A stretch of 49,390 bases of DNA from Dehalococcoidia bacterium (GTDB taxonomy: Bacteria > Chloroflexota > Dehalococcoidia > Tepidiformales > Tepidiformaceae). The notes under the pieces were generated by a model, which worked only from the letters and a program-made list of their open reading frames with translations, was not told where the DNA came from and did no database searches. The position numbers and the translations under genes were made by a program. The stretch lies in the NCBI GenBank assembly GCA_020432105.1, contig JAGQGZ010000002.1, forward strand, positions 1 to 49,390, in the 5' to 3' direction. Of this stretch, positions 8,860 through 43,756 are shown one piece after another. Positions within the stretch are counted from its first letter, which is position 1. Each line of letters opens with the position of its first letter.

Positions 8860-9426
8860 TCATTCGTCGCCGGCATCGGGGCCGACCTGATCGTCGACCG
8901 CGGTGGCGCCGTCGAGGAACGCGTCTATCGCTCGATTGAAGGCGTTGGGGAGGACGGTGAGCACGAAGGGTGTGCCGTCGAGGAGAACCCCGGCAGCTAC
9001 CGAATCGTCGATGTCCTCCCGCAGGTTCGGCTTGGGGAAGGCTACGAAGGCGATGAGGATGACCTGGCAGACGAGGACGCCCTTGACGAAACCGAAGGCA
9101 GCACCGGCGAGCTGGTCGGCGGCACCAAGGTTGAGGATCTCGGTGCCACGACGGAGGAGGTAGGCGGCGACCTGCCCCCCGATGATGATCCCGGCGAGGA
9201 TCGCCAGGAACGAGAGGAGGGCAGCACCGACCTGGTTGTCGATGATCGGTTCGACCTTGGGGTAGAGGTCGTCGTAGAAGATGCCGGCGATGGGGATGGC
9301 GAGGATGACAGCACCGAGTGACACGAGCTCCCGGATGAAACCGTTCTTCCATGCCCTCCAGGTCAGGAACCCGATGGTCAGGACGATAAGGATGGTGACC
9401 CAGTTCAAGCGGTGGCCCTCGCACAC
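8860..9426 (-). CDS. CvpA-family membrane protein
   Basis: The 188 residues have four hydrophobic segments in the CvpA pattern: an N-terminal NWVTILIVLTIGFLTWRAWKNGFIREL, a second helix with LGAVILAIPIAG, a third LLSFLAILAGIIIGGQVAAYLL, then the conserved GAADQLAGAAFGFVKGVLVCQVI loop-helix. CvpA proteins sit in the inner membrane and are tied to colicin V production and envelope stress, but the mechanism is unclear. The start is GTG at 9426 with AAGGTGA 6 nt upstream. A TTG at 9408 with GAGGG before it would give a more typical N-terminus and is a fair alternative. The gene stands alone on the minus strand. Confidence 0.82.
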   Translation of the reverse strand: MCEGHRLNWVTILIVLTIGFLTWRAWKNGFIRELVSLGAVILAIPIAGIFYDDLYPKVEPIIDNQVGAALLSFLAILAGIIIGGQVAAYLLRRGTEILNLGAADQLAGAAFGFVKGVLVCQVILIAFVAFPKPNLREDIDDSVAAGVLLDGTPFVLTVLPNAFNRAIDAFLDGATAVDDQVGPDAGDE

Positions 9427-9496
9427 ATTGGGTCACCTTCGCGCGTCATCGCCGCAGCATCAAGCATCGCGGTGTGACTCAGTCCTCGTGGCGTCG

Positions 9497-9502
9497 TACG
9501 AT
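9497..9502 (+). promoter_or_regulatory. Putative -10 box TACGAT of a leaderless promoter
   Basis: TACGAT ends 7 nt before the ATG at 9510. Confidence 0.55.
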
Positions 9503-9509
9503 TCCGGGA

Positions 9510-9695
9510 ATGCGACCGGACCTGATGGAGATCCTTGTCTGCCCAACCTGCAAGGGCGAAGTCACGCTCACCGTGTACAAGGAATCGGACGGTGAGATTG
9601 TCGAGGGGCGGATCGACTGCGCCGCCTGCAAGGTGGAGTACCCGATCGAGGACGGCATCCCGAACATGTTGCCCCCCGACCTCCGCGACCAATGA
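9510..9695 (+). CDS. Trm112-like zinc-ribbon protein
   Basis: This 61-residue protein has two cysteine pairs, CPTC near residues 9-12 and CAAC near 36-39, framing a small beta ribbon, and ends in the family signature YPIEDGIPNMLP. It belongs to the Trm112/YcaR family. In eukaryotes and archaea these activate methyltransferases; bacterial members are thought to have similar partner roles. I chose the ATG at 9510 rather than the start 36 nt upstream because TACGAT ends 7 nt before it and the protein then begins with the family's usual MRPDLMEILVCP. Its stop overlaps the next start (ATGA), giving a coupled two-gene unit. Confidence 0.85.
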   Translation: MRPDLMEILVCPTCKGEVTLTVYKESDGEIVEGRIDCAACKVEYPIEDGIPNMLPPDLRDQ

Positions 9696-9985
9696 ATGAA
9701 CACCCGGACCACGGCGACGACCCTCACCACGGTGGCGAGGACGAAGAGCACGGCTACGGTGTAGCTGATGTCCCGCGCTTCCAGGCGGGGCTCGCGGTAA
9801 GGGGTGCTCTGCTGATTCTCGCCGGGCTGGGGATGATTTCAGGCGGCCTGAGGACGTTCCGGAACCACCACGTACTGGGGCTTCCGTTCGCGATTGCCGG
9901 GGTTGCCGGGGGCCTGACGTCGATCTGGGCAGGGATCATCCACATCACGGGTGGCGAACGCTTCGACGACCACCCGTTCCTCTAG
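9692..9985 (+). CDS. Small two-helix membrane protein, histidine-rich N-terminus
   Basis: The protein has 97 residues. The first 20 are dominated by histidine, aspartate and glutamate, which could bind metal. Two membrane helices follow near residues 33-50 and 62-85. I do not recognise a family. The ATG overlaps the stop of the Trm112-like gene (ATGA), so it is probably made with it. The stop overlaps the stop of the convergent gene at 9982 by four bases. No function is proposed. Confidence 0.7.
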   Translation: MNEHPDHGDDPHHGGEDEEHGYGVADVPRFQAGLAVRGALLILAGLGMISGGLRTFRNHHVLGLPFAIAGVAGGLTSIWAGIIHITGGERFDDHPFL

Positions 9986-10362
9986 GTCGATACTCCAGTT
10001 CGTAGCGAGCGAGGGCGGCGCCAGTGCGTGGCAATCGCGTAGATTGCTGCGCTTGTAAGGACGACGGCTGCGACCGCAAGGGGTATCTGCCACCAGGCAA
10101 AGGTGCGGTCGTTGGCGGCCCGCACGGCTGAAACGGTAAGGATGAATCCGATGGCAGCCCCGGAGATGACCAGCCATCGGTCGCCGGGGAGGCGACCGGC
10201 GAGAAGCCAGGCGATAGCGGGATAGCCGGCGGCCGAGAAGTAGATGAGCACGACAGCAATGGCAAAGAGCCAGCCCTGGTCCGTGGCGCCGCCAACGATA
10301 TGCAGGGCAAAAGACAGGGCGAAGACGAGGAAGGCACCGACGAGACCGGTGAGGTAGCGCAT
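9982..10362 (-). CDS. Small hypothetical membrane protein (four helices)
   Basis: The 126 residues contain four hydrophobic segments (about 5-25, 31-55, 63-82, 88-111) and a basic C-terminal tail (HWRRPRSLR), which suggests both ends lie in the cytoplasm. There is no recognised family. It follows rsmE by 4 nt and may be the last gene of the dnaJ-prmA-rsmE unit. A TACACT box inside the end of rsmE, 6 nt before the ATG, would also allow leaderless expression on its own. Confidence 0.65.
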   Translation of the reverse strand: MRYLTGLVGAFLVFALSFALHIVGGATDQGWLFAIAVVLIYFSAAGYPAIAWLLAGRLPGDRWLVISGAAIGFILTVSAVRAANDRTFAWWQIPLAVAAVVLTSAAIYAIATHWRRPRSLRTGVST

Positions 10363-10366
10363 GGAA

Positions 10367-11086
10367 TCAGTGTACGGCGGCCCGAACGAGAGAGGTGGCG
10401 ACGATGGCCGCCGTTTCCGTGCGGAGGACGTTTGGACCCAGCGATGTGAGGATGGCTCCCCTGTGCCGGGCCTGGGTCACCTCATCCGGCGTGAACCCCC
10501 CTTCGGGGCCGACGAGCACCGCAAGCGTTCCGCGCCGGGGGAGAAGGTTGGCGGCTTCGGGCCAGGACATCTCCTGCGGGTGCGGCACCAGGAATGCCTG
10601 TCCGGGGCGTTCCAGCAGGCGTGTGAGGGAGGCCGGTTGCTGAAGCACGGGCAGGTAGAGGCGTCCCGACTGCTCAGCCGCCTCGATGACGATGCGTTCC
10701 CACCGATCGTACCGGCTCGGGGAAGGTGATTCGCCACGGCCCGACCGCTCTGTAAGGAGTGGTGTGATCACGTCTGCCCCGATCTCGGTTGCCTTCTCGA
10801 CGATGAGGTCGAAGCGGTTGGCACGTACGAGACCGGCATAGAGTTCAAGGCTCAACGCCGGCGGTGGTTCGTGGCGACTGGGGGCGCCAAGGCTGGCTCT
10901 GATGCGCTTGCCAGAGGCCTGATCGATGACGGCGGGGTACTCGTGGCCGTCGCCAGAGAAAGCGAGGAACTCGTCTCCCCGGGAGAGGCGAAGGACCGTT
11001 GTGAGGCGGCGGGCAGCATCCCCTGCGACACTGACAGGCCCGGGCTGGAGGGGCCCGGGAAGGTAGACGCGGGGCAGCGCAGCCAC
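10367..11086 (-). CDS. rsmE: 16S rRNA (uracil-1498-N3)-methyltransferase RsmE
   Basis: This 239-residue SPOUT methyltransferase has the trefoil-knot motifs LVGPEGGFTPDE at 191-202 and LGPNVLRTETA at 217-227, and an N-terminal PUA-like domain (LPRVYLP, RLTTVLRLSRGDEF). EKATEIG near 98-104 is also diagnostic. RsmE methylates U1498 of 16S rRNA in the 30S subunit using S-adenosylmethionine. The gene lies 9 nt after prmA in a dnaJ-prmA-rsmE cluster, an arrangement known from many bacteria. Its expression is therefore likely tied to the CIRCE-controlled promoter before dnaJ. Confidence 0.95.
   Translation of the reverse strand: MAALPRVYLPGPLQPGPVSVAGDAARRLTTVLRLSRGDEFLAFSGDGHEYPAVIDQASGKRIRASLGAPSRHEPPPALSLELYAGLVRANRFDLIVEKATEIGADVITPLLTERSGRGESPSPSRYDRWERIVIEAAEQSGRLYLPVLQQPASLTRLLERPGQAFLVPHPQEMSWPEAANLLPRRGTLAVLVGPEGGFTPDEVTQARHRGAILTSLGPNVLRTETAAIVATSLVRAAVH
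10369..10374 (-). promoter_or_regulatory. Putative internal -10 box TACACT of a leaderless promoter
   Basis: TACACT lies over the last codons of rsmE and ends 6 nt before the ATG at 10362. The spacing matches the other leaderless sites, but the site is inside a coding end and could be chance. Confidence 0.35.
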
Positions 11087-30696: not shown

Positions 30697-33276
30697 CTAC
30701 GGCCCGGCCGGGATGACCCAGCTTCGAGCCTCATCGAGGGCGATCCAGTAGGCGTTGCCGAAGACGAGGACGCTGAGGGTGTTGGTTCCCGGGATGTTGA
30801 CGCCCGCGGGGAAGAAGCGGAGCCAGCCGGGGTTCTGGTAGAAGTAGACCGCCGTGACGTCACCGTAGATGGACGTGGTCTCGTTGTTTCCATCGAGACT
30901 CTGGAGGGCGACGATGACGTCGATGCCGGTGGGGCCGGCCCAGGTGACGAGGTTCCAGCGGAACGACAGCGAATAGGTAACCGTCGCGGTGCTGCTCTTG
31001 TAGGTGTAGGTCGTGCCGCTCCCGGTGGGGCTTGTGCCCTGGGGAGTAACGACGCGCACGGTCACGGCCCCGGGCACCCCGGCTGGAGCGACGGCGGTGA
31101 TCTTCGTGCTGCTGTCGACCTGGAAGCTGGTGGCCGCATTGCCACCGAACGCGACGGAGGTTGCCCCGGTGAGGTCGGTACCGGTGATGACGACCTGCGT
31201 GCCACCGGCGACCGGCCCCTGCGAAGGTGAGAGCGAGCTGATGGTGGGCAGGGCGTTGTAGGTGTACTCGTCATCATCGGTGGTGGTACTGAGGCCGGCG
31301 GGGCTCTGCACGCGAACGTGGACGACACCGGTACCGGCGGGCACCTGGGCCACGATCGAGGTCCCGCTCGAGACCTGGATGGCAGGGGATTCGTTGGTGC
31401 CGAAAAGAACAATCGTTGCGCCGAGGAAGTTGCTGCCGGTGATGGTGATGAAGCCACCGCCGGTCTTGGGGCCACTATTGGGCGTCAGGGCACTGACCGA
31501 CGGTACTCCGTAGGTGAAGCGGTCGGCATTGACCTCGGGGCTGGTGCCACCGGGAGCCGAGACCCGGATATGGACGGTTCCCAGGGCCTGTGCAGGAGAG
31601 GTGGCAGTGATGCTCGTGTCGCTGACGAAGGTGAAGCTGGTCGCGGCGATGGCTCCGAAGCTCACGGCGGTGACGCCGGTGAAGCCACTGCCGGTGATGG
31701 TGACGACGGTGCCACCTGCGGTGGGGCCGCCGGTGGGCGAGACGCCGGTGATGTTCGGGCCGCCAAGGTATTCGTAGTCGTCGGCGGCGACGTTGGGGCT
31801 GGTACCGCTGGCATTGGTGACACTGACGTTCACGGTGCCGAGGGCGTGCGGCGGTGCGACGGCGGTTATCTGGGTGGCGCCGTTGATGACGAAGCTCAGC
31901 GCGTTCGTCCCGCCGAAGCTGACGGTGGTGACGCCGAGCAGGTTGGTGCCGCTGATGATGACGTTGTTGTTGCCACCGGTGGGACCGGTGTCAGGATTGA
32001 GACCCGTGATGGTTGGCGCCAGGGTGTAGGTGAAGTCGTTGCCAGTGCCGGCGGTTGGGCTGGTACCGGCAGGAGTGATCACGGTGACATCGACAGTACC
32101 CGGTACTGTCCCTGACGGTACGGTGGCGGTCAGCGTTGTGGAGCTGTCGACATGGAACACTGATGCTGTGAACGAACCGAACTTTATCGATGTCACGGTA
32201 CCGAGGAACTGGCCCGTGATGGTGACCTGGGTGCCGCCTGCAACCGGGCCGGAGTTCGGCGTGACGCTGGTGACGAGAGGGATGTTGCCGGTGTAGGTGA
32301 AGTCGTCCGCAGGCGTGTTCGGACTCGTACCGGATGGACTGGTGACGCTTACTCGAACCGTGCCTACTGTCAGTGCGGGAGCGGTCGCCGTGATCTGATC
32401 GTCGTCATCGATATTAAAGGCGACTGCGGGTGTCCCGCCGAACGATACAGCGCTTGCGCCAGTGAACCCGTTTCCGTGAATCACTACCTCGCTCGTTTGC
32501 CCAGCCGGGCGGCTGGCCGGGTTGAGAGAGTGAATCGCAGGGCCGGATGTGTACTCGAACTTGCTCGCGGCAGAGGGTACATTTTGTCCCCCGTCGCGGT
32601 TGTCCACCAGTACGTCGACTATCCCGGCTGCGTGATTGGGAGCGACGGCCTGGATCCGGTTGTCGCTGGCGATGCTGCAGCTAAGTGCGGCAGTACCGCC
32701 AAATGTCACGTCGTCGGGACACGTAGCTCCGAGGAAATTAGCGCCGAGAATCGTGACGTCGGCACCGCCCGATGTATTGTCGCTGCTCGGTGACACGCTC
32801 GTGATGATGGACTTCTGCGGGCCATCGTCGTCATTGATCGTGATGCTAACGCTATCCTGATCACCAGGGACGCTGCACGGTGTCTGGCCGCCACCGACGT
32901 TCTCGTCGATTATGAAGTCCACAACGATCGAATCGCCCGGAGTGCCGTTGTCTACTGCCGTAAGCGTGACAGTCTCGCTGTTTGAGGACCCTGTGAACTC
33001 CTCGGAGCCGGCAGGAGATAGTCGGCCGGATGGCACGCCCAAGTATTCGGTGTAGTACCGGACGTGGGCAGTTTCATTTCCGCCGGACCGGTTCAGCACA
33101 ATATTGATCTGCTGACCCTCAGTGACTACGTAGGTCCCCGGCATGATCGTACACGTCCCAACCGCGGCACTTGCCGGGCGGATGCTACTGGCTGCCAGGG
33201 CAATGCCGATGAGCAGCGCCGCAAGCACAAGTACGAGAAGCCGCAGCGGATGCGACAGGACAGGAGTTGTTCCCAT
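30697..33276 (-). CDS. Large exported IPT/TIG-repeat surface protein with shared C-terminal module
   Basis: This 859-residue protein has an N-terminal signal sequence (RLLVLVLAALLIGIALAASS, cleavage probably near 38), a Calx-beta-like domain (about 42-150), then seven IPT/TIG repeats of 80-90 residues. Each repeat has a PxxGPxxGGTxVxIxGxxFxG / VxFGGxxAxxF pattern and ends in a SPTG..FTY-like strand. It ends with a domain of about 90 residues (RWNLVTWAGP, VTAVYFYQNPGWLRFFPAG, AYWIALDEARSWVIP) that also ends three other exported proteins of the window. GGAGG lies 6 nt before the ATG. It is probably displayed at the cell surface as an adhesive or structural rod; there is no membrane anchor or sortase motif. 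Confidence 0.85.
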   Translation of the reverse strand: MGTTPVLSHPLRLLVLVLAALLIGIALAASSIRPASAAVGTCTIMPGTYVVTEGQQINIVLNRSGGNETAHVRYYTEYLGVPSGRLSPAGSEEFTGSSNSETVTLTAVDNGTPGDSIVVDFIIDENVGGGQTPCSVPGDQDSVSITINDDDGPQKSIITSVSPSSDNTSGGADVTILGANFLGATCPDDVTFGGTAALSCSIASDNRIQAVAPNHAAGIVDVLVDNRDGGQNVPSAASKFEYTSGPAIHSLNPASRPAGQTSEVVIHGNGFTGASAVSFGGTPAVAFNIDDDDQITATAPALTVGTVRVSVTSPSGTSPNTPADDFTYTGNIPLVTSVTPNSGPVAGGTQVTITGQFLGTVTSIKFGSFTASVFHVDSSTTLTATVPSGTVPGTVDVTVITPAGTSPTAGTGNDFTYTLAPTITGLNPDTGPTGGNNNVIISGTNLLGVTTVSFGGTNALSFVINGATQITAVAPPHALGTVNVSVTNASGTSPNVAADDYEYLGGPNITGVSPTGGPTAGGTVVTITGSGFTGVTAVSFGAIAATSFTFVSDTSITATSPAQALGTVHIRVSAPGGTSPEVNADRFTYGVPSVSALTPNSGPKTGGGFITITGSNFLGATIVLFGTNESPAIQVSSGTSIVAQVPAGTGVVHVRVQSPAGLSTTTDDDEYTYNALPTISSLSPSQGPVAGGTQVVITGTDLTGATSVAFGGNAATSFQVDSSTKITAVAPAGVPGAVTVRVVTPQGTSPTGSGTTYTYKSSTATVTYSLSFRWNLVTWAGPTGIDVIVALQSLDGNNETTSIYGDVTAVYFYQNPGWLRFFPAGVNIPGTNTLSVLVFGNAYWIALDEARSWVIPAGP
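30700..30978 (-). other. Copy A of the shared C-terminal module (IPT protein)
   Basis: It encodes FRWNLVTWAGP, then VTAVYFYQNPGWLRFFPAG, then NTLSVLVFGNAYWIA and a terminal tryptophan (SWVIP). The same order of motifs occurs at 46331-46624, 42406-42626 and 43541-43753. Confidence 0.75.
31014..32820 (-). repeat. Seven tandem IPT/TIG Ig-like repeats in the exported protein
   Basis: Repeat heads recur about every 80-90 codons. Examples are SVTPNSGPVAGGTQVTITG, GVSPTGGPTAGGTVVTITG, ALTPNSGPKTGGGFITITG and SLSPSQGPVAGGTQVVITG. The first repeat is the most divergent. Confidence 0.75.
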
Positions 33277-38173: not shown

Positions 38174-38605
38174 TTAGATGGCGAATTCGGTATCGATCTT
38201 GGCGGACATATCGAAGTAGTCCTGGATCGTCTGGTTGAAGCGATAGAAGAGGTCTCGGCGGTTGTAGTCCTTGCCGACCGCGAGCTCTTTCTCGGTGTGA
38301 AGGTCGAGAGAGTTGAGGGTGAACTCGTGCTCGGCCTGGCCATTGTCCTTGATGTTCTGGAGCATGGCCTTCCACTCCTCGGGCTCCTGGACAAGCGTGA
38401 AGTCGAGGTCGGCCGCGTCGGGTGATGCGATCTCTTCCACGTCGGTAATCTCGAAGGCGTCGAAGACGATCTTGAATGTCTTGTCACCGACCTGGACGCC
38501 CATCTGGGCATCGGCGGCGCCAAACTGCTTGAAGCTGTCGGACTTGGCCAGCAAGTCTGCAGCCTCCCGGAACCACTCAACCGATGGGAATACTTTCTTG
38601 GACAT
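38174..38605 (-). CDS. SCP2-like (sterol-carrier-type) domain protein
   Basis: The 143 residues form a single small domain like SCP2/sterol-transfer proteins: WFREAADLLAKSDSFKQFGAADAQMGVQVGDKTFKIVFDAFEITDVEEI, then mixed strands and helices with FTLNSLDLHTEKE. Such domains bind hydrophobic ligands such as lipids or acyl-CoA. GGAGG sits 5 nt before the ATG, and tandem TAGAAT boxes lie 54-77 nt upstream. It is co-transcribed with the DUF3500 gene. The family call is reasonable but the N-terminal half is diverged. Confidence 0.6.
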   Translation of the reverse strand: MSKKVFPSVEWFREAADLLAKSDSFKQFGAADAQMGVQVGDKTFKIVFDAFEITDVEEIASPDAADLDFTLVQEPEEWKAMLQNIKDNGQAEHEFTLNSLDLHTEKELAVGKDYNRRDLFYRFNQTIQDYFDMSAKIDTEFAI

Positions 38606-38706: not shown

Positions 38707-40620
38707 TCAGCGGATACAGCCAGATTGCTGCCAGCTGTAAGACCGGGTCGTTGCATTGCCTTTGGTGTCGAAGGCCGTGACCTGGAAGGTTGAGGGGACG
38801 GGGTCGCCGGGATTGTTCACCGTGCCTTCGTAGCTCCCCTGGCCGATGTGCGTCATCGACGCCGAGTCACTGCCCCAGACCAGCTGTGCCCTCTCTACGC
38901 CCGAGGGATCGGTGGCGACCACCACGACGGTGAGCGAGATGGGATTGATTTCCAGGTCACAAGTGGAGAGCTGGACGGCCGGCCCGGTGGTATCGGGAAC
39001 CGTCGTTGGTGTCGGCGTTGGCCCGATGGTCGACACGGATATCCGGATCGTGGCCCCGAGAATCGGATCCAGTATCACCTCAGCCGACTGATCGCCCGAT
39101 GGCAGCTTTTCCCGGTCGATGTTGAGCACCACGACCTGGATGGCATTCGGGGCGGGCGCCAATGCGAAGCTTGCCGGGCTCACCGTCAGCCAGGGCTGGC
39201 TGGAGGAAGTGACGACCTCCGCGCCGCCGCAGAAGGAGACGTTGCGCACCTCGATTTGCCATACGGGCAGGTCCCTGAGGTCCAGCGACGTGGTTGGGAC
39301 ACTGAGCTGCGGGACGCAGGTGGTCGGGGTAGGGGTGACCGTCGGCGTGCGTGTCGGCGTCGGGGTGTTGGTAGGCGTGGCGGTCGGCGTACGGGTACCC
39401 GTGGGCGTCGCCGTGGGGATTCCGGGGGTGGCCGTTGGCGAAGGCGTGGCGGTCGCCTCTTCGAGGTTGCCACCGCTCGAAGACGGGGTGTCAGTGGGCG
39501 CCGGCTCGGGGGTGGCGGTGTCGTCGGCCGGCGGTGTCGCGGTCTCGGTGGGGGCAGTGGTTGGCGTCTCGGTGGGGTCGCGGTCCGTGGGGACGACGAG
39601 ACCGCCATCATCGTCGCCGCCGTTGCGGGCGAGATTGAGGGGCGTGAAGGCAAAGAGGAGGAAGAGAACGGCAGCGAATGCCCCGAGGCCGAGTGCGGCA
39701 TTGAAGACACGCCCGCCGAACCGGCCACCACCACCGGCCGTGGGGAAAGCAGGGGAGGCGGGGATACCGGCACCGCCGCCAGCGGCTGTGGCACCCTGCC
39801 AGTTCGCCATGAGCTGACCCAGGACGTCGGCCTTGAGGGCAGGAGGGGCCGCCAGTGGGGTGAACGCGCCGAAGACGGCCAACGGGCTCACCATCTTCTT
39901 CTTCCGTTCTTCGCACTGTTCGCAGCGGGCCACGTGCTGCTGCACCATCTTGCGCACGTCGGGCGTCATTTCGCGGATGCCCTGCTGCTCCAGTGCGGAG
40001 TCAAGCTCCGGGCAGTGTTTTCGTCCGTCGTGCAGCATGATGTAGGCCCCGATAGCTTCTTCGACGGCCTTTTTGAGACGGTTGAGCATCACGTAGCCGT
40101 TGTTCTTCGTGACGCCCATTACCTCGGCTATCTCAGCGCTTTCCAACCCCTGGTGCAGGTGGAGCTGGAGGAGCGATAGCTGTTTCGGGTCGAGGCCGGC
40201 GGCCGCCTCCCAGACGAGCGAGCCCATGGCCGAAGCCTCTGCAGCCTCGGCGGGGTCGCCGAACCGGTCGGTATCGACCACGTCCATCGAGACGTCGTCG
40301 CCATCGTCATCCTCGAAGCTGAGGGGGCGGGTCCGCGACGCCTTCTCCAGGCGGTTGAGGGTCGTATTCCTGGCAATCGTGAAGATCCAGCTCTTGAAGC
40401 TGGCTCCCTCCTTCAAACCGCCCAGCGCCTGCATCGCCTTGATGAAGGTGTCCTGGGTGATGTCGGCGGCCTCGTCGCGGTTGCGGGTCATGCGCGCGAC
40501 GAAGTCGTAGACACGGTCGAAGTAGCGGTCGTAGAGACCGGCGAACGCCTGCTGATCGCCGGCCAATGCGGCGGCAACCAGTTTGCGATCCGTCTGCGCC
40601 TCTAGCGACGCGATTGCCAT
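38707..40620 (-). CDS. ECF sigma factor fused to anti-sigma zinc motif, membrane helix and extracytoplasmic Ig-like domains
   Basis: This 637-residue single polypeptide begins with sigma region 2 (about 18-95: QQAFAGLYDRYFDRVYDF, AADITQDTFIKAMQ, FKSWIFTIARNTTLNRL) and region 4 (145-190: LDPKQLSLLQLHLHQGLESAEIAEVMGV, NNGYVMLNRLKKAV). A zinc anti-sigma motif follows (C203, then HVARCEQC at 229-236, the HxxxCxxC of ZAS domains), then one membrane helix (about 307-330). A Thr/Pro linker with TPTPT repeats (340-435) and two Ig/BACON-like domains outside the cell (about 437-637) complete it. Normally these are two or three separate proteins. I chose the ATG at 40620 because GGAGG lies 6 nt upstream. 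A rhomboid protease gene lies 148 nt upstream on the same strand. Confidence 0.88.
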   Translation of the reverse strand: MAIASLEAQTDRKLVAAALAGDQQAFAGLYDRYFDRVYDFVARMTRNRDEAADITQDTFIKAMQALGGLKEGASFKSWIFTIARNTTLNRLEKASRTRPLSFEDDDGDDVSMDVVDTDRFGDPAEAAEASAMGSLVWEAAAGLDPKQLSLLQLHLHQGLESAEIAEVMGVTKNNGYVMLNRLKKAVEEAIGAYIMLHDGRKHCPELDSALEQQGIREMTPDVRKMVQQHVARCEQCEERKKKMVSPLAVFGAFTPLAAPPALKADVLGQLMANWQGATAAGGGAGIPASPAFPTAGGGGRFGGRVFNAALGLGAFAAVLFLLFAFTPLNLARNGGDDDGGLVVPTDRDPTETPTTAPTETATPPADDTATPEPAPTDTPSSSGGNLEEATATPSPTATPGIPTATPTGTRTPTATPTNTPTPTRTPTVTPTPTTCVPQLSVPTTSLDLRDLPVWQIEVRNVSFCGGAEVVTSSSQPWLTVSPASFALAPAPNAIQVVVLNIDREKLPSGDQSAEVILDPILGATIRISVSTIGPTPTPTTVPDTTGPAVQLSTCDLEINPISLTVVVVATDPSGVERAQLVWGSDSASMTHIGQGSYEGTVNNPGDPVPSTFQVTAFDTKGNATTRSYSWQQSGCIR

Positions 40621-40768
40621 TGGCAACCTCCCCGGGTCCACCCGGTACCCGAAACAGGGATGGCCTGGCCGTCGATGGTTCGGCTATCCCACTCCTGAGA
40701 CAGCTGAACCGCGGGTTTCTTACAGATTTCGGCACAAGAGTACATGAGTGTGCCAGGTGATAGCCGTC
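40621..40768. other. Intergenic region between the rhomboid and sigma-fusion genes
   Basis: It holds the sigma-fusion ribosome site (GGAGG near 40627-40631). GAAAC near 40715 might be an ECF-type -35, but the matching -10 is not at the right distance. No terminator is visible after the rhomboid gene, so read-through into the sigma gene is possible. Confidence 0.3.
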
Positions 40769-41554
40769 CTACGGGGGGTGCCGGCGGCCGCGGATCAGGA
40801 CAGCGGTGACCATGCCGAAAACGAAGCCCCCGATATGCGCGAAGAATGCGACACCGCCTTCGGGCCCGGCCGCGGCGCCAAGCGAGGCGTAGCCGGCCAC
40901 CAGGTTTTGGGCGAACCAGAAGCCAATCATGAGAATGGCGGGGACGGGCAGAGGGATGAAGAAGAAGGGGAAGAACGGGATGATGATGTTGACGGTTGCC
41001 CGCGGGAACCAGAGGAAGTAGGCGCCGAGGACCCCGGCAACGGCACCGCTGGCCCCGACGACCGGGACCACGGACTCCGTGTCGATGGCGACCTGGGTGA
41101 GCGACGCGACAATCCCGGCGAGTGCGTAGAAGAGCACGTACCCAAAGTGGCCGAGGCGATCCTCGACGTTGTCGCCAAACACCCAGAGAAACAGCATGTT
41201 GCCGAGCAGGTGGAGCCAGCCGGCGTGGAGGAAGAGGGAGGTGAGGATGGTCGCGAGCACGGGCAGCGTGGCCTGGCCACCGAGGTCGGAGTCACCGCTG
41301 AGGGCATCGAGGAACTCACGAGGCTGGAGGGCCCACTCGCAGTAGAAGCGGTCAACATCTGTTGGGGCCGCATCGAACCCGTAGCAGACACCGTCCCGTT
41401 GTTCGCGGAACTCCTCGAGGCCCTGGCGGCGGGTGCCCGGCACTGCATTGGAAAGCGTGAGGGCATAGACGAAGACAGCGAGATTGACCGCGATAAATGC
41501 GTAGTTGACGAAGGGCGTCGTGCGGGTGCGAGGGCTGTCGCTGATGGGGATCAA
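40769..41554 (-). CDS. Rhomboid-family intramembrane serine protease
   Basis: This 261-residue protein has six or seven membrane helices. The catalytic pair is S169 in GASG and H240 in FFAHIGG. HAGWLHLLGNMLFLWVFGDNVEDRLG (about 110-134) is the family signature region. Rhomboids cleave membrane helices of other proteins inside the bilayer. The start is TTG at 41554, giving MIPISDSPRTR, the usual bacterial beginning. A 5-codon open frame, MADPN then TGA, precedes and overlaps this TTG, and a TACGAT box lies 6 nt before its ATG. It is adjacent to the membrane-bound sigma fusion, which is a plausible substrate. Confidence 0.88.
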   Translation of the reverse strand: MIPISDSPRTRTTPFVNYAFIAVNLAVFVYALTLSNAVPGTRRQGLEEFREQRDGVCYGFDAAPTDVDRFYCEWALQPREFLDALSGDSDLGGQATLPVLATILTSLFLHAGWLHLLGNMLFLWVFGDNVEDRLGHFGYVLFYALAGIVASLTQVAIDTESVVPVVGASGAVAGVLGAYFLWFPRATVNIIIPFFPFFFIPLPVPAILMIGFWFAQNLVAGYASLGAAAGPEGGVAFFAHIGGFVFGMVTAVLIRGRRHPP

Positions 41555-41568
41555 TTCGGGTCCGCCAT
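41551..41568 (-). other. Five-codon leaderless minicistron overlapping the rhomboid start
   Basis: ATG-GCG-GAC-CCG-AAT-TGA on the minus strand starts 6 nt after a TACGAT box and its TGA overlaps the rhomboid TTG (TTGA). Either translation of the minicistron feeds ribosomes to the TTG start, or one base is missing in the assembly and the true protein starts at this ATG. Confidence 0.45.
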
Positions 41569-41574
41569 GGCCGG

Positions 41575-41580
41575 ATCGTA
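41575..41580 (-). promoter_or_regulatory. Putative -10 box TACGAT before the rhomboid minicistron
   Basis: TACGAT on the minus strand ends 6 nt before the ATG at 41568 and 20 nt before the rhomboid TTG. Confidence 0.5.
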
Positions 41581-41672: not shown

Positions 41673-41783
41673 ATCCTGCTCCGCCTGAGGGGTTCCCCGG
41701 TTCCCGTAGGGGGTCGCGGTTCATACGTTCGAGGCCGGTCGCAGGTGTGCCCCCGCCCAATCTCGCGACCGCTGGATATCGCC

Positions 41784-42629
41784 ATGGGCCGAAACCCGGC
41801 CTTACCGATGGCACTCGTGCTGGTTGCCGTGTGCACAGCCCTTGCCTTATCACTAACGACGCCGGGAGCAGTGCATGCCGGTGCCAACTGCGAAACCGCG
41901 GGCGCCGGGCTGAGCGCCTCCGAACAGGAGATGTTCGACCTGATCAATGCGGCCCGGGCTGCCGAGGGACTCAGCCCCCTCGTGATCTCACCGGGCCTGA
42001 ACCGGACGGCAGCGTGGAAGTCAGCAGACCGGAGCGCGTGGGGAACAACGCCTTCAGATCCGTTGTTCTCACACAAGGACTCGCTGGGGCGCATGCCGAC
42101 GCAGCGTGCGAATGACTGCGGCTTCCCAAAGGATGCGGCCGAGAACATCGCCTACGGCTGGGGAAGCGCGCGCGCCACGTTCGATGCCTGGATGGCGAGT
42201 TCGGGCCACCGCGCGAACATCCTGATGTCGTACTACGTGACGGTTGGGATCGGTGAACATGACGACCGCTGGACTGCGAACTTCGGGATCTTCAACGACG
42301 GTGCGGCAGCAGTACCGGCTCCGGCCGCGACAGTGGCCCCGGCTGCACCCGTTAGCCAGGCGAAGCCTGCGGTCCCGCAGCCACCGAAAGCAATGAAGCT
42401 CGGCGCCGGAGCCACGAGGGTTGTGTACGCGGGACCTGGCGGCTGGAGCGAAGACATCTTCGGCAGCCTCGGTTCCTCGCTCGAGTTCGTTTACACGTGG
42501 GATGCGGCACACGGGTGCTGGCTTCGTTATGTCCCGGGCGAGCCCTCCTACGTCAATTCCCTTGCGTGGATAAAGCCCGGCATTGAGGTGATCGTCGGGG
42601 TGACGTCGGCAGGCACGTGGGAGTGGTAG
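41784..42629 (+). CDS. Secreted CAP/SCP-domain protein with shared C-terminal module (first copy)
   Basis: This 281-residue protein has a signal peptide at about 1-32 (LVLVAVCTALALSL, AVHA), then a CAP (cysteine-rich secretory/SCP-PR1) domain: FDLINAARAAEGLSPL, LNRTAAWKSADRSAW, FSHKDSLGRMPTQRANDCG, AAENIAYGWG and WMASSGHRANILM. An Ala/Pro linker follows (about 175-210), then the C-terminal module shared with three other proteins (VVYAGPGG, WLRYVPGEPSYVNSLAW, ending TWEW). The ATG at 41784 is chosen because it starts the signal peptide. CAP proteins are extracellular and have diverse, often unproved, activities. CGTAA repeats lie 110-150 nt upstream. Confidence 0.88.
   Translation: MGRNPALPMALVLVAVCTALALSLTTPGAVHAGANCETAGAGLSASEQEMFDLINAARAAEGLSPLVISPGLNRTAAWKSADRSAWGTTPSDPLFSHKDSLGRMPTQRANDCGFPKDAAENIAYGWGSARATFDAWMASSGHRANILMSYYVTVGIGEHDDRWTANFGIFNDGAAAVPAPAATVAPAAPVSQAKPAVPQPPKAMKLGAGATRVVYAGPGGWSEDIFGSLGSSLEFVYTWDAAHGCWLRYVPGEPSYVNSLAWIKPGIEVIVGVTSAGTWEW
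42406..42626 (+). other. Copy C of the shared C-terminal module (first CAP protein)
   Basis: It encodes ATRVVYAGPGG, LEFVYTWDAAHGCWLRYVPG, VNSLAWIKPG and a terminal tryptophan (TWEW). It is the most diverged copy. Confidence 0.65.
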
Positions 42630-42799: not shown

Positions 42800-43756
42800 A
42801 TGGGAAGAACACGTGCGCGAGTGTCGCTTGCGCTGTTCGCCGCAGCAATGTTCTCGGCCGCCGTCTGGGCGGCAATGTCGGTTGAAGGCGCACGGGCGAT
42901 CACTGACTGCGATACGGAAACGGCGGGCAACGATTCGGCCGAACTGGCAATGCTCCAGCTGGTGAGCAGCATGCGGGCGAGCCAGGGTGCAAATGCACTG
43001 GTGGTCTCTCCCAACCTGAACCGGATGGCTGCCTGGAAGTCGGGCGACTCGAGCAACCTCCCGCCGCTCAGCCACACGGACAGCCTGGGTCGTGCGCCCT
43101 TCGAGCGTGCGACGGACTGTGGCTACGGTTCCGGCGCGGCCGAGAACATTGCCTATGGCTATCCTTCGGCACAGGCGACATTCGACGCGTGGATGGCGTC
43201 TTCCGGACACCGCGCGAACATCCTGAACCCCACGTACGTGGCGATCGGCATCGGTCACACGGGCAATTCCTGGGCGATGAACTTCGGCTTCCTCAATGAT
43301 GGCGGGGCGCCGGCACCAACGAGCACGTCACCGCCAACGAGCACAGCCACGCCGACTAACACTCCTCCCGGATCGCCGACGCAGGCCCCACCGACGCAGA
43401 CCGCACCAACCCAGGCCCCGCCAACAGCGACCCGTACGATCGCCAGCCCGACACAGTCACCAGGGCAGCTGGCCCCTACCTTCACTCCTACCGTGCCCGC
43501 ACCGACGAAGACTGCTGCGACTGGCAGACAGATGATCCAGGGACTCAACCTCGTCACCTATTCGGGGCCGACACTGCCGGTGGAACATGCCCTTGGCTCG
43601 CTGGGGTCGAATGTGGAGTGGGTGTACACGTGGGATGGTAGCAACTGGCTACGGTATTTCCCGGGCCAACCCCCGTATGTGAACACCTTGAAGACGCTGC
43701 AGCCCGGGGTCGCCTACTTCATTGCGATGCGAGGCGCAGCCAGCTGGGGCTACTAA
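42800..43756 (+). CDS. Secreted CAP/SCP-domain protein with shared C-terminal module (second copy)
   Basis: This 318-residue paralogue of the preceding gene has a signal peptide at about 1-34 (SLALFAAAMFSAAVWAAMSVEGARA) and a CAP domain with SPNLNRMAAWKSGDSSN, LSHTDSLGRAPFERATDCG, AAENIAYGYPS and WMASSGHRANILN. A long Thr/Pro linker (about 172-240) follows, then the module GLNLVTYSGP, VEWVYTWDGSNWLRYFPG, NTLKTLQPGVAYFIA, ending SWGY. A GGGGGA purine tract is close to the ATG. The linker differs in sequence and length from the first copy while both end domains are conserved, so selection appears to act on the domains. Confidence 0.88.
   Translation: MGRTRARVSLALFAAAMFSAAVWAAMSVEGARAITDCDTETAGNDSAELAMLQLVSSMRASQGANALVVSPNLNRMAAWKSGDSSNLPPLSHTDSLGRAPFERATDCGYGSGAAENIAYGYPSAQATFDAWMASSGHRANILNPTYVAIGIGHTGNSWAMNFGFLNDGGAPAPTSTSPPTSTATPTNTPPGSPTQAPPTQTAPTQAPPTATRTIASPTQSPGQLAPTFTPTVPAPTKTAATGRQMIQGLNLVTYSGPTLPVEHALGSLGSNVEWVYTWDGSNWLRYFPGQPPYVNTLKTLQPGVAYFIAMRGAASWGY
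43541..43753 (+). other. Copy D of the shared C-terminal module (second CAP protein)
   Basis: It encodes LNLVTYSGP, VEWVYTWDGSNWLRYFPG, NTLKTLQPGVAYFIA and a terminal tryptophan (SWGY). Confidence 0.7.

Follow-up and report, generated by a model that had tools for sequence, protein, structure and literature searches.

In a 49,390 nt stretch of DNA from a Dehalococcoidia bacterium (contig JAGQGZ010000002.1; the whole stretch is referred to here as the window), a sigma factor is encoded in one frame with what look like its own inhibitor, a membrane helix, and an external sensor, next to a gene for a rhomboid protease. The locus raises the question of whether this fusion is genuine and, if so, how its sigma factor could be held and freed, which genes it would serve, and whether the neighbouring rhomboid is involved. 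The 637 aa protein begins with an ECF sigma factor and continues with a zinc-type anti-sigma domain and a single membrane helix; a Thr/Pro stalk then leads to two beta domains. The locus is laid out as follows.

38174..38605 (-), downstream gene, 143 aa; adjoins the fusion gene in 10 loci and is approximately 62 % identical across genera
38707..40620 (-), fusion gene, 637 aa; a single uninterrupted frame from the ECF sigma factor to the outer beta domains
38710..38982 (-), second outer Ig-like domain, about residues 547-637; from the structure model
39025..39309 (-), first outer domain, about residues 438-532; Ig-like beta sandwich, BACON-like by family; model pLDDT 89
39316..39597 (-), Thr/Pro-rich stalk, about residues 342-435; from the sequence
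39634..39699 (-), single membrane helix, about residues 308-329; hydropathy 2.3 over 19 residues (308-326)
39805..40014 (-), zinc-type anti-sigma domain, residues 203-272; C203, H229, C233, and C236 in a helical bundle
40066..40215 (-), sigma region 4, residues 136-185; Pfam Sigma70_r4_2, 2.2e-4, slightly short of the cut-off
40330..40536 (-), sigma region 2, residues 29-97; Pfam Sigma70_r2, 5.7e-16
40699..40723 (-), putative ECF promoter GTAAGA-N15-TGTC, inside the gap between the rhomboid and fusion genes
40769..41554 (-), rhomboid protease, 261 aa; PF01694, 5.6e-34; putative TTG start

The fusion gene starts with an ATG at 40620, just preceded by GGGGAGG. Its sigma part has regions 2 and 4 only and is ECF-type in sequence: Sigma70_r2 scores 58.5 bits, TIGR02937 scores 85 bits against a cut-off of 42.9, and profile matches to ECF sigma factors in the PDB extend over region 4 as well. 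The HVARCEQC motif starts at residue 229. Pfam, hydropathy, and alignment thus agree with an earlier sequence-only reading, which had described sigma regions 2 and 4, HxxxCxxC with a partner cysteine, one helix, and a Thr/Pro linker in 637 codons, and where it had placed Ig-like domains outside, the model of the C-terminal part shows two all-beta domains. The outer domains of the window copy have no Pfam match, and a fold search with them returned general Ig-type matches only (pilus chaperones, TM about 0.4); BACON_2 is detected by Pfam in 17 out of 22 relatives (best 1.9e-9). The 143 aa downstream protein has no match in Pfam or the PDB. Elsewhere in the window, at 30697-33276 (-), an 859 aa protein with seven IPT/TIG domains is encoded, probably a surface protein.

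The fusion is not peculiar to this locus. A second one of the same design is present on another contig of the same genome (L002), strong matches were found in 25 of 61 genomes (this genome and its relatives), and, when 393 genomes of the class were searched and the architecture read, the same domain order was found in 12 families. All complete fusion frames read among the relatives have HxxxCxxC and then a membrane helix. In 44 aligned sequences, an alignment that omits four decayed or divergent copies (L066, L071, L073, and L080), the residues C203, L206, H229, C233, C236, and two in the sigma part are invariant. Because of this invariance and the recurrence of the order in dozens of other genomes, chance, a frameshift, a chimera, or an assembly error can be excluded as the origin of the fusion. 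A broken frame or an unconserved fusion had been named beforehand as grounds for abandoning the idea; the frame is intact and the order recurs. The fused sigma/anti-sigma/sensor protein is therefore widespread in these Chloroflexota. In two relatives within the family of the window copy, the outer part is a sortase: sigma factor, anti-sigma motif, helix, and C-terminal sortase domain form one polypeptide in L063 (8190-9857, (+); PF04203, 1e-20), and L064 has the same chain (8871-10478, (-); PF04203, 3e-16). Three fusion-like frames (L145 in G132:C2, L159, and L165) are interrupted by stops and are perhaps pseudogenes or sequencing errors. A fusion very near the Dehalococcoidia copies (L039) also occurs in an Acidobacteriota-labelled MAG, the record being titled Holophagae bacterium FeB_10, which is probably binning contamination.

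The domain that follows the sigma factor has the features of a class I ZAS protein: Hx3Cx2C, a further ligand about 25 residues upstream, these four being the presumed zinc ligands, and a helical fold. A profile of the 44 sequences matches ChrR in the PDB (2q1z_B, E 4.9e-5, profile positions 207-298), as well as many ECF sigma factors, and the Pfam domain zf-HC2 is detected in 18 of the 44. In an AlphaFold2 model of the sigma and anti-sigma part, pLDDT is mostly >90 (about 96 in the anti-sigma domain as far as residue 270) and pTM is 0.78, with low confidence in the helix and linker, confidence having been judged by pLDDT and pTM. Foldseek comparisons, given as TM-scores on the target, place this model closest to SigW in its complexes with RsiW (0.76-0.79) and to CnrH with CnrY (0.78), against just 0.30-0.44 for SigE, SigH, and SigL bound to RNA polymerase; other ECF factors bound to anti-sigma factors (AlgU, RpoE-RseA, SigK, and RpoE-ChrR) reach only 0.47-0.54. 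The predicted arrangement of the sigma regions resembles SigW held by RsiW, which supports a self-inhibited resting state, short of proof.

The putative promoter GTAAGA-N15-TGTC is the sole match in the window, where 0.11 would be expected by chance, and it lies inside the gap between the two genes, so the fusion has a promoter candidate of its own. The same element, with a spacer of 15 or 16, precedes 15 further fusion genes in the same family and two others, giving a consensus of GTAAGA-N15/16-KGTC, a layout that we take to resemble RpoE-type promoters. A strict form, with NNAC added after, was fixed before the downstream genes were inspected and was compared with the backwards pattern as control. 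The strict form occurs 39 times across 27 fusion-bearing genomes and the control 10 times (31 against 8 in 14 genomes, 8 against 2 in 13 more), counts to be read with the pattern having been chosen by eye from fusion upstream regions and the genomes being related. Where no fusion was detected, in another 14 genomes, the counts are 5 and 4.

Ten of the 38 strict sites that were read in fusion genomes are at fusion genes. Among the other 28, 19 are 13-59 nt before the start codon of a gene for a protein with an export signal or a helix at its N-terminus, against a background of 24.5 % of genes (p about 1.6e-6); in the fusion-lacking genomes, none of the five sites is so placed before the gene of an exported protein. 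In the genome of the window, a sortase gene on contig C43 has a site with a spacer of 16 at 10 nt upstream of its start, and strict sites stand before genes for two exported proteins, one on C384 and one on C333; the relaxed pattern shows no enrichment in this genome (9, against 15 for the control). The C43 sortase (G000:C43; L202, L008) is lipoprotein-type, and its contig also carries T/P-rich exported proteins. Sortase-type C-terminal signals are present in three products (L189, L193, and L186) and, in G132 and G195, in those of the genes that follow the fusion. It is therefore probable, as judged from site placement, that the sigma factor of the fusion switches on secreted and surface-anchored proteins. 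Several intact fusions from other subclades are without the element; either their specificity differs or the link between promoter and fusion is not general. For the same reason, its absence at decayed copies, considered as proof of function, is not decisive. The rhomboid gene was also considered as a regulon member and rejected, there being no element upstream of it within the window. At one locus (L174, G005:C12), the element upstream of the fusion faces the opposite way, towards a divergent gene for an exported 422 aa protein.

As a prediction from sequence and model, tethering and self-inhibition of the ECF sigma factor have good support, namely the ChrR profile match, the inhibited-like model, the conserved ligands, and the ECF-type promoter at the gene itself; the earlier reading had already proposed the tethering. 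Since the sigma factor must be cytoplasmic, the helix is predicted to be oriented N-in/C-out. The genome encodes an RseP-like M50 site-2 protease, beside an ORF that we take to be Dxr. Such S2P proteases generally cleave N-in/C-out helices (PMC8144685), and from IutY and ECF52 (PMC8999054; see below) proteolytic release of the sigma factor would be a reasonable inference.

Our preferred reading, which we consider probable, is of an envelope switch contained in one polypeptide, in which an inhibited ECF sigma factor would be released by proteolysis to serve a regulon of exported proteins through GTAAGA-N15/16-KGTC. At rest, the anti-sigma domain would hold sigma regions 2 and 4 in the way that RsiW clamps SigW. 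An event outside, acting on the beta domains, would lead a site-1 protease to trim the outer part, and a site-2 protease, for example the RseP-like protein of this genome, would then cut the helix. Cytoplasmic proteases would strip the inhibitor domain from the soluble part, and the free sigma factor would read its promoters, so that more of itself and of exported proteins would be made; the latter may include the sortase in this genome and sortase-anchored proteins in relatives. At the window locus, the rhomboid may serve as the site-1 protease. A more specific form of this reading is tentative: the proteins may be surface-assembly switches, in which the outer Ig/BACON or sortase domain would monitor the sortase-built surface and the sigma factor would raise the sortase and its substrates; in part of one lineage, a rhomboid would make the first cut.

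That the adjacent rhomboid itself cleaves the helix at its outer end and so frees the sigma factor, on its own or together with an S2P, is unlikely, despite a recurrent association. As had been read from the sequence, the rhomboid gene is 148 nt upstream on the same strand. Both catalytic motifs are complete, GASG (GxSG) and AHIGG (AHxGG), as expected for an active rhomboid, and it is the single one detected in this 81%-complete genome. A rhomboid gene followed by a fusion on one strand, with gaps of 34-229 nt, is found in eight genera of two families (the window, G001, G002, G005, G008, G013, and G017 in one family and G067 in the other), which suggests an old link. Among the genera of the family, 14 have both genes, three have neither, and one has the rhomboid only (p 0.005, confounded by kinship). 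Just past the outer end of the helix, a helix-breaking P-x-S-P-x-A-L-T-R is conserved in most family members.

The adjacency sought in relatives thus recurs, but as a minority arrangement; as a general rule it was rejected, most intact fusions being without a neighbouring rhomboid. It was not found in the remaining family genomes with both genes (contig ends limit some), and in three single-contig genomes, G012, G029, and G032, the rhomboid is 476, 422, and 340 kb from the fusion. Outside the family, only one of 36 fusion loci is next to a rhomboid (G067), and two genomes, G080 and G195, have the fusion and no PF01694 match. A rhomboid as the protease for all fusions cannot hold. The orientation is also the inverse of that expected. 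A survey of rhomboid substrates took N-out/C-in helices and cited one type II substrate, Star (PMC2941825), and the fusion, by its inferred topology, departs from the canonical N-out/C-in helix with a motif at the outer end. The stretch AALGLGAFAA, which the sequence-only reading had thought suited to a rhomboid, is at the cytoplasmic end of the helix, whereas rhomboids cut at the outer end, and that suggestion is dropped. In the window copy, the motif at the outer end has drifted or been lost (TPLNLAR).

Furthermore, in five of the eight rhomboid-linked copies (G001, G002, G005, G008, and G067), sigma region 2 is degenerate and under the Pfam cut-off. The helix is kept in all of these copies, as is the outer domain wherever it can be read; the G008 copy is without HxxxCxxC. 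In G005, an intact fusion is present elsewhere and the decayed copy is the one beside the rhomboid. Sigma70_r2 is full in the linked copies of the window, G017 (60.6 bits), and G013 (63.6 bits). The five decayed rhomboid-linked copies are those at L072, L073, L074, L080, and L150, L080 being the one that has lost HxxxCxxC, and it is possible that such copies are pseudo-sigma factors. The 143 aa downstream gene adjoins the fusion at least as often as the rhomboid does. Two exported CAP-domain proteins are encoded at 41745-42629 and 42800-43756 (+), divergent from the rhomboid, and CAP genes also neighbour the rhomboid in many relatives, whether or not a fusion is present. Because CAP and kinase genes occupy the same block, inheritance of the block from a common ancestor could explain the linkage in place of function. 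No paper was found on an ECF-rhomboid pair, apart from passing mentions. Weighed against the unlinked fusions, the rhomboid-less genomes, the topology, and the decayed copies, the case for the rhomboid as the releasing protease is weak.

A redox or metal switch without cleavage, in which the zinc site senses, the domain unfolds, and the still tethered sigma factor acts at the membrane, is very unlikely. The zinc-ligand set is invariant, and soluble ZAS proteins can sense via such a site (PMC8999054), but the site may instead be structural, as in RsiW (PMC7406223), a membrane-bound sigma factor would need to reach promoters, and the long outer stalk with its conserved domains would be left without a role. 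Least probable of all, and opposed by the full sigma region 2 of the window, G017, and G013 copies and by the promoter element of the window copy, is that at rhomboid-linked loci the product is mainly a surface or membrane protein with a vestigial sigma part, for which the five degenerate copies, and the loss of the zinc motif from one, would speak.

The preferred reading, a one-polypeptide envelope switch, has precedents in other bacteria. In ECF52, represented by SCO4117 of Streptomyces coelicolor, a sigma factor, zinc finger, helix, proline-rich stretch, and putative carbohydrate-binding module follow one another; the group has been called exclusive to Actinobacteria, and proteolytic release has been proposed (PMC5826349, PMC8999054). 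By domain order, the window fusion matches it in the sigma factor, zinc finger, helix, and proline-rich extension. It differs in lineage, the fusions here being in Dehalococcoidia and Thermomicrobium; in the outer domain, which here is BACON/Ig-like or a sortase (BACON-like in the relatives noted above, and without a Pfam match in the window copy); in the predicted exported and surface regulon; and in the rhomboid linkage of some genomes. A Nonomuraea protein from a plasmid record (L217) shares this order and includes a T/P stalk and a tail of beta type, and the cultured Thermomicrobium roseum has a shorter related fusion, TRD_RS13910, also found in a plasmid record. IutY of Pseudomonas putida (ECF243) likewise joins a sigma factor and a membrane anti-sigma factor in one chain, from which the sigma factor is released in regulated proteolysis by Prc and then RseP (PMC8999054). 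IutY serves iron cell-surface signalling with a receptor. Its inhibitor is FecR-like, not zinc-type. SigW-RsiW and RpoE-ChrR share with the fusion, by sequence and model resemblance, a zinc-type anti-sigma domain that clamps an ECF sigma factor, but there the partners are two separate genes and ChrR is soluble. ECF57 proteins are also ECF factors with a long C-terminal extension, made of WD40-like repeats in place of the anti-sigma domain and Ig-like sensor here (PMC8999054).

No paper was found on such fusions in Dehalococcoidia, nor on a sigma-sortase fusion. The architecture is known from actinobacterial ECF52; the lineage, the predicted regulon, and the sortase variants look new. A fused sigma/anti-sigma/sensor chain places an entire signalling pathway in one gene, and its carriers in Dehalococcoidia and Thermomicrobium, with a predicted promoter and regulon, make it testable outside the Actinobacteria. 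If the tie to sortases and the surface is true, it would provide a first handle on cell-surface regulation in these mostly uncultured bacteria.
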